A stretch of 64,000 nucleotides of DNA, taken from the NCBI GenBank assembly GCA_913045315.1, contig CAJWQJ010000003.1, positions 62,001-126,000 on the forward strand, written 5' to 3'. A program made the position numbers and the translations under genes. A model generated the notes under the pieces. It was not told where the DNA came from. It ran no database searches and worked only from the letters and a program-made list of their open reading frames with translations. Position 1 is the first letter of the stretch. Every line of letters begins with the position of its first letter. Source of the stretch: an uncultured Chloroflexota bacterium. Its GTDB lineage: Bacteria; Chloroflexota; Dehalococcoidia; Lucifugimonadales; UBA1127. Shown here piece by piece: positions 39,122 to 39,522 of this stretch.

Positions 39122-39156
39122 TTAGTAAATGTTTAACTAATTATGGAGATGAAATC

Positions 39157-39522
39157 ATGAATTCATTAAAGTTATACTATTGGTCAAAATGAAATAAGTG
39201 TCGTTCAGTGAGAGAGTTGCTCTTGCAAGAGAAAGTGAATTTTGAAGAAAGGGATATATTTATAAATCCCCTTAATGCTGATGAAATATCAGCAGTTTTT
39301 GGTGATGAAAATGTAAGCAAGATATTTTCCTCCAGAAGTCCTAGCTTGAAGAAATTGGGGCTTATATCTGATTCTTTAAATGATACAGAAAAGATCAAAT
39401 TAATGAGTGAAGAACCACGTTTAATTAAACGACCCATAATTGTTTTTGATGGAGTTATTTTTGCTGGTATAAACGAAAATTCATTGAGAGAAGAATTGAA
39501 CAAAAAAAATTTGTTTTCATAA
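39157..39522 (+). CDS. ArsC/Spx-like thioredoxin-fold protein with in-frame TGA (candidate selenocysteine)
   Basis: Start ATG 39157 has GGAG eight bases upstream. The frame reads MNSLKLYYWSK, TGA, NKCRSVRELLLQEKVNF and continues to a TAA at 39522, giving 121 residues with TGA as residue 12. The ArsC/Spx family begins with a short strand (LYY), a catalytic Cys, then CR-x-x-x-x-L and a helix. Here TGA takes the place of the first Cys of CxxC (TGA12, Cys15), predicting a UxxC redox motif. Later parts (ERDIFINPLNADEIS, RLIKRPIIVFDGVIFAG) match the family, including the Arg/Pro segment. It would be an arsenate-reductase-like or thiol-disulfide oxidoreductase. Alternatives: nonsense mutation or sequencing error. 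Follows acuI by 35 nt. Confidence 0.7.
39212..39231 (+). promoter_or_regulatory. Candidate SECIS-like hairpin region after the in-frame TGA
   Basis: Two mutually exclusive small hairpins start 20-28 nt after the TGA at 39190-39192. One is GAGAG(39212-39216)/CTCTT(39220-39224) with loop TTG. The other is CTCT(39220-39223)/AGAG(39228-39231) with loop TGCA, whose second base is G. Their distance from the TGA suits bacterial SECIS elements, but the stems are short and evidence is weak without folding. Confidence 0.3.

Follow-up and report, generated by a model that had tools for sequence, protein, structure and literature searches.

Selenocysteine (Sec)-containing ArsC-like proteins had already been reported in 2006 (PMC1794560). 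The Global Ocean Sampling (GOS) survey of 2008 then described a family named "Arsenate reductase 2" (cd03032) with a UxxC motif and 42 Sec sequences (PMC2398784). The initial annotation of the present locus had also mentioned such proteins from marine metagenomes. A 2026 review places an ArsC-like UxxC family under NF041106 (PMC13188914). The window analyzed here is a 64,000-nucleotide stretch of DNA from an uncultured member of the Chloroflexota, whose genome assembly amounts to 1.45 Mb and is 89% complete. Based on comparative sequence evidence, we regard it as almost certain that positions 39157–39522 of this window are a functional selenoprotein gene in which UGA specifies Sec. Our literature search found no paper placing such an ArsC/Spx-like selenoprotein in SAR202 or Chloroflexota, and the protein appears to be undescribed in this phylum.

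The frame opens with an ATG at 39157, runs through eleven codons (MNSLKLYYWSK) to the TGA at 39190–39192, and resumes with NKCRSVRE to continue to a TAA at 39520–39522, the TGA being its single interruption (Table 1). The ATG, the eleven codons, the TGA and the NKCR after it, together with the GGAG upstream of the ATG, had been listed in the initial annotation and were all seen in the sequence. With the UGA read through, the product has 121 residues, an ArsC/Spx fold and UxxC as its active site. When the window was scanned for further TGA read-through frames accompanied by SECIS-like hairpins, two others only were obtained, both of which were judged to be chance occurrences.

Table 1. Features of the ArsC/Spx-like selenoprotein locus (positions are those of the window)
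Feature	Position	Strand	Remarks
Ribosome-binding-site-like GGAGA	39145..39149	+	7 nt 5' of the ATG; from sequence
ArsC/Spx-like selenoprotein gene (almost certain)	39157..39522	+	121 aa when the UGA is decoded as Sec; profile and structure matches
UGA codon of Sec12, aligned with the catalytic Cys (Spx Cys10)	39190..39192	+	of 139 homologues, 131 share the TGA and 8 carry Cys
TGT codon of Cys15, second UxxC residue, putative resolving Cys	39199..39201	+	Cys in all homologues
Bacterial SECIS-like hairpin	39208..39226	+	conservation and covariation

To collect homologues, genome contigs were scanned with a single-protein query, which returned none, and with an alignment query, which returned 127. 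The codon at the Sec12 position was inspected in 139 homologues, almost all from Chloroflexota and chiefly from Dehalococcoidia/SAR202, spanning many families and independent assemblies; it was TGA in 131 and a Cys codon (TGC or TGT) in the other eight. The Sec or Cys codon was always followed by xxC, and none of the 139 contained a second TGA within the domain. These sequences include the same species from two collections, and removal of near-identical proteins left 110 TGA and 8 Cys genes. A homologue was present in 59 of 98 relatives, nearly all with one TGA, and a phylum-wide sample likewise consisted mostly of single-TGA homologues with a stop-free minority. The named relatives of the window protein are mostly Dehalococcoidia, SAR202 and other Chloroflexota, which makes a SAR202-type member of the phylum the probable host. 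Outside the phylum, the UGA form was found in Syntrophaceae and other deltaproteobacterial MAGs, and the Cys form in one cyanobacterial MAG. A contig labelled Flavobacteriales (L084) carries a near-copy of a Dehalococcoidia gene and is probably mis-binned.

If the ArsC-like gene were dead and its TGA a recent nonsense mutation or a base-call error, the formal interruption of the frame would be accounted for. However, sequencing error is untenable when more than 100 genomes, each assembled separately, show the identical TGA; the remainder of the frame is open, and the hairpin described below has been kept by compensatory change. Judged from these sequences, conservation in practice refutes the reading as a pseudogene or error, to which we give very little credence; the earlier argument that a chance nonsense mutation would rarely strike this codon is reinforced by its recurrence in independent homologues. 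A gene tree of 119 rows and 116 columns, which is poorly resolved, implied at least 7 Sec/Cys changes, 2 of them forced by starred branches. A small Dehalococcoidia clade (L154, L155 and L156) has Cys and no hairpin, and selB is still present in two of the three genomes; here Sec gave way to Cys (or Cys to Sec) independently of whether the machinery was lost.

In the published bSECIS model, the stem comprises 4–16 bp and the loop 3–9 nt, a G occupies one of the first two loop positions, the loop lies 16–37 nt past the UGA, and the free energy is −7.5 kcal/mol or lower (PMC13188914). The window contains a hairpin that starts 15 nt 3' of the UGA, with a 7-bp stem formed by the arms GUGAGAG (39208–39214) and CUCUUGC (39220–39226) and a 5-nt loop, AGUUG (39215–39219), in which the G is second and which begins 22 nt past the UGA. 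Its stem, loop, G position and distance all fit the published geometry. With flanks included, its free energy is −7.2 to −7.3 kcal/mol, falling slightly short of the −7.5 of the model, and two of its pairs are G-U; single-sequence folding in full context showed it to be no better than shuffles. The window hairpin alone is therefore weak, and the case for a SECIS rests on conservation.

An alignment of 30 sequences showed that 94% of the hairpin cells were paired, with 21 double changes distributed over four of the seven pairs; the covariation score was matched by none of 500 shuffles, and pairing dropped to 38–65% in slid registers. All seven pairs were intact in 84 of the 110 UGA genes. When synonymous codons were redrawn for the same proteins, only about 4 of 110 stems were perfect (maximum 12 in 1000 trials), and within-column shuffling of synonymous codons gave about 29 (maximum 41 in 1000 trials), demonstrating that selection on the encoded protein does not by itself produce the pairing. 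Stems with at least six of seven pairs in the same register occurred in 95/110 UGA genes versus 0/8 Cys genes (Fisher p 7e-7). The other 15 UGA genes had five or fewer pairs in the fixed register. In two loci of family f19 (L033 and L050) the hairpin is shifted or bulged (GUG-A-GAG...CUCCAC); this variant SECIS counts as broken when pairs are scored in the fixed register.

The initial annotation had noted that no Sec machinery gene lies in the window and had proposed a genome-wide search, which located every component elsewhere in the same genome: a tRNA-Sec (62 bits, anticodon TCA), selB (340 bits, with nearly the full model covered), selA (530 bits) and selD (363 bits), the last likewise interrupted by an in-frame TGA, in HCGGUAAKF. 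This UGA-interrupted (Sec) selD is located at L018:1501-2421 (G000:C3:12684-13604), and a strong SECIS-like hairpin, GUCCAGA-GGC-UCUGGAC, follows its UGA on the 3' side. Among the relatives, selB scored over the cut-off in 55 of 56 UGA-form genomes, the exception (G091) being a 620-contig assembly, and it was found in all 17 further UGA-form genomes tested. Overall, selB occurred in 72/73 UGA-form genomes versus 7/12 stop-free genomes (Fisher p 1.3e-4), a probability that serves as a guide only because related genomes are not independent, and a comparison in which one of the seven selB genes from stop-free genomes is only a fragment and the codon was not inspected in two stop-free genomes (G321 and G380).

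The frame would be equally open if the host used a changed code in which UGA denotes an amino acid other than Sec (Trp, Gly or Cys). We hold this to be the least credible of the readings considered, for this genome uses TGA as a regular stop, with 13 of the 43 large ORFs of the window terminated by it, and a code change therefore fails to explain the interrupted frame; furthermore, the Sec machinery is present, and the residue in the stop-free homologues is Cys rather than Trp or Gly, with the hairpin lost. A start at the downstream GTG (39208), as in the GTG-started 39208–39522 entry of the ORF listing, would produce only 104 aa, and the redox residue would be missing. That start is highly improbable, since the domain is conserved in one frame on either side of the UGA, the ATG at 39157 has a good ribosome-binding site, the GTG sits within the hairpin, and the N-terminal strand and CxxC are present in the Cys homologues. 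The machinery, the Cys alignment and the covarying hairpin all favor the selenoprotein reading first put forward in the initial annotation, and each of the refuting conditions listed there that was put to the test spoke for that reading.

The read-through protein scored 54.5 bits against Pfam ArsC (PF03960), over the gathering cut-off of 24, and 26.9 bits against Pfam Glutaredoxin. Its best relatives of solved structure were Spx proteins (E 6e-15), with the UGA placed over Spx Cys10, and this alignment, along with the eight Cys homologues, confirmed that the TGA stands at the first Cys of CxxC. An AlphaFold2 model of the 121-aa protein (pLDDT 90.5) matched Spx as the top fold in the PDB (TM about 0.8), followed by ArsC-like proteins. 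In terms of curated models, it scored 64.1 bits with TIGR01617 (Spx; cut-off 75.05), 67.9 bits with NF002459 (Spx; cut-off 123) and 31.5 bits with TIGR00014 (arsenate reductase), far under the cut-off of 106. With NF041106 (ArsC_rel_Se_1; cut-off 85) it fell under the reporting limit, and three relatives reached 23.5–35.4 bits. Among 118 homologues, UxxC (Cys and Sec pooled), R92 and P93 (Spx numbering) are invariant, the R60 position is Arg in 84, and the K62 position is Pro in 101. The designation "ArsC/Spx-like" holds at the level of fold but not of membership: by these sequence criteria, the protein does not qualify as an ArsC or as an Spx in the strict sense.

Two further readings concern function only and are compatible with Sec insertion. 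A selenium-containing Spx, that is, a redox-switched regulator binding RNA polymerase, would be in keeping with the best sequence and fold matches, the UxxC at the Spx switch position, the invariant R92 and the frequent Arg at R60. We consider it unlikely, as the scores lie under the Spx/MgsR cut-offs, K62 is mostly replaced by Pro, and G52, part of the α-CTD contact of Spx with RNAP (PMC2801614), is Gly in only 30 of 118 homologues and Asn in the window protein. A selenium-containing arsenate reductase is suggested by the ArsC Pfam domain and by the name that such proteins bear in the literature (PMC2398784, PMC13188914); this assignment is likewise unlikely, given the low TIGR00014 score, the variability of the R60 position (R60 also in ArsC), the absence of any recognized ars gene among the immediate neighbors, and the status of the gene as the sole ArsC-family gene of its genome, set in a housekeeping neighborhood. 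Since the curated ArsC and Spx scores were both missed, we prefer a putative role as a general thiol/selenol oxidoreductase, which is probable, over arsenate reduction or Spx-type polymerase binding.

In the selenoprotein reading, SelB positioned on the hairpin just 3' would bring Sec-tRNA(Sec) to UGA codon 12, and the resulting 121-residue protein would carry Sec as the first residue of its UxxC center. In the putative oxidoreductase, the selenolate may attack an oxidized substrate (a disulfide, a peroxide or a small oxyanion) that the invariant arginine of the RRP motif would help to place nearby; Cys15 would then resolve the intermediate as a selenenylsulfide, and a thioredoxin-type reductant would recycle the enzyme. 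Gene neighborhoods offered no lead to a substrate or partner, and neighbors vary between families: the family to which the window belongs has cca upstream, another set has mutS/mutL and a HAD-like gene, and a third has homoserine dehydrogenase. In many relatives (L031, L032, L042, L085 and about 23 other loci), mutS is the upstream and mutL the downstream neighbor, and a small HAD-like phosphatase gene accompanies them. There is also a small chance that the protein is an Spx-like redox regulator containing Sec, or else a selenol reductase that defines the lineage and acts on a new substrate, and that most SAR202-type Chloroflexota maintain it; if true, an abundant deep-water ocean clade would possess a selenium-dependent redox switch.

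Automatic annotation would truncate this gene at the UGA or start it at the internal GTG, and would thereby miss a selenoprotein that much of Dehalococcoidia/SAR202 has conserved. A class of selenoproteins formerly seen in metagenomes only is now tied to an abundant uncultured phylum, and the compact set of SECIS elements and of natural replacements by Cys, part of which come from genomes that lack selB, can be used for studies of Sec gain and loss. Three points are new: the protein is assigned to Chloroflexota, its SECIS covaries, and the NCBIfam models do not claim it.

Among the described systems, GOS Arsenate reductase 2 (cd03032) likewise has an ArsC-related domain and UxxC and is marine, and the survey gives no host lineage (PMC2398784). 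The UxxC and the Spx-like best matches of the window protein would be in keeping with cd03032, and the GOS family and the present clade are, by description, likely identical. ArsC_rel_Se_1 (NF041106) is also an ArsC-related Sec protein with UxxC, but its model fails to claim the window protein or its relatives (24–35 bits versus 85). Bacillus subtilis Spx (NF002459, TIGR01617) shares the fold, the CxxC position and R92, and provides the best sequence and structure matches; in contrast, it has Cys10 where the window protein has Sec, and its G52 and K62 are not conserved in the clade. The ArsC of Escherichia coli plasmid R773 (TIGR00014) has the fold and the catalytic Cys position in common with the window protein, but relies on a single catalytic Cys, whereas the window protein has UxxC and scores far under the cut-off of that model.
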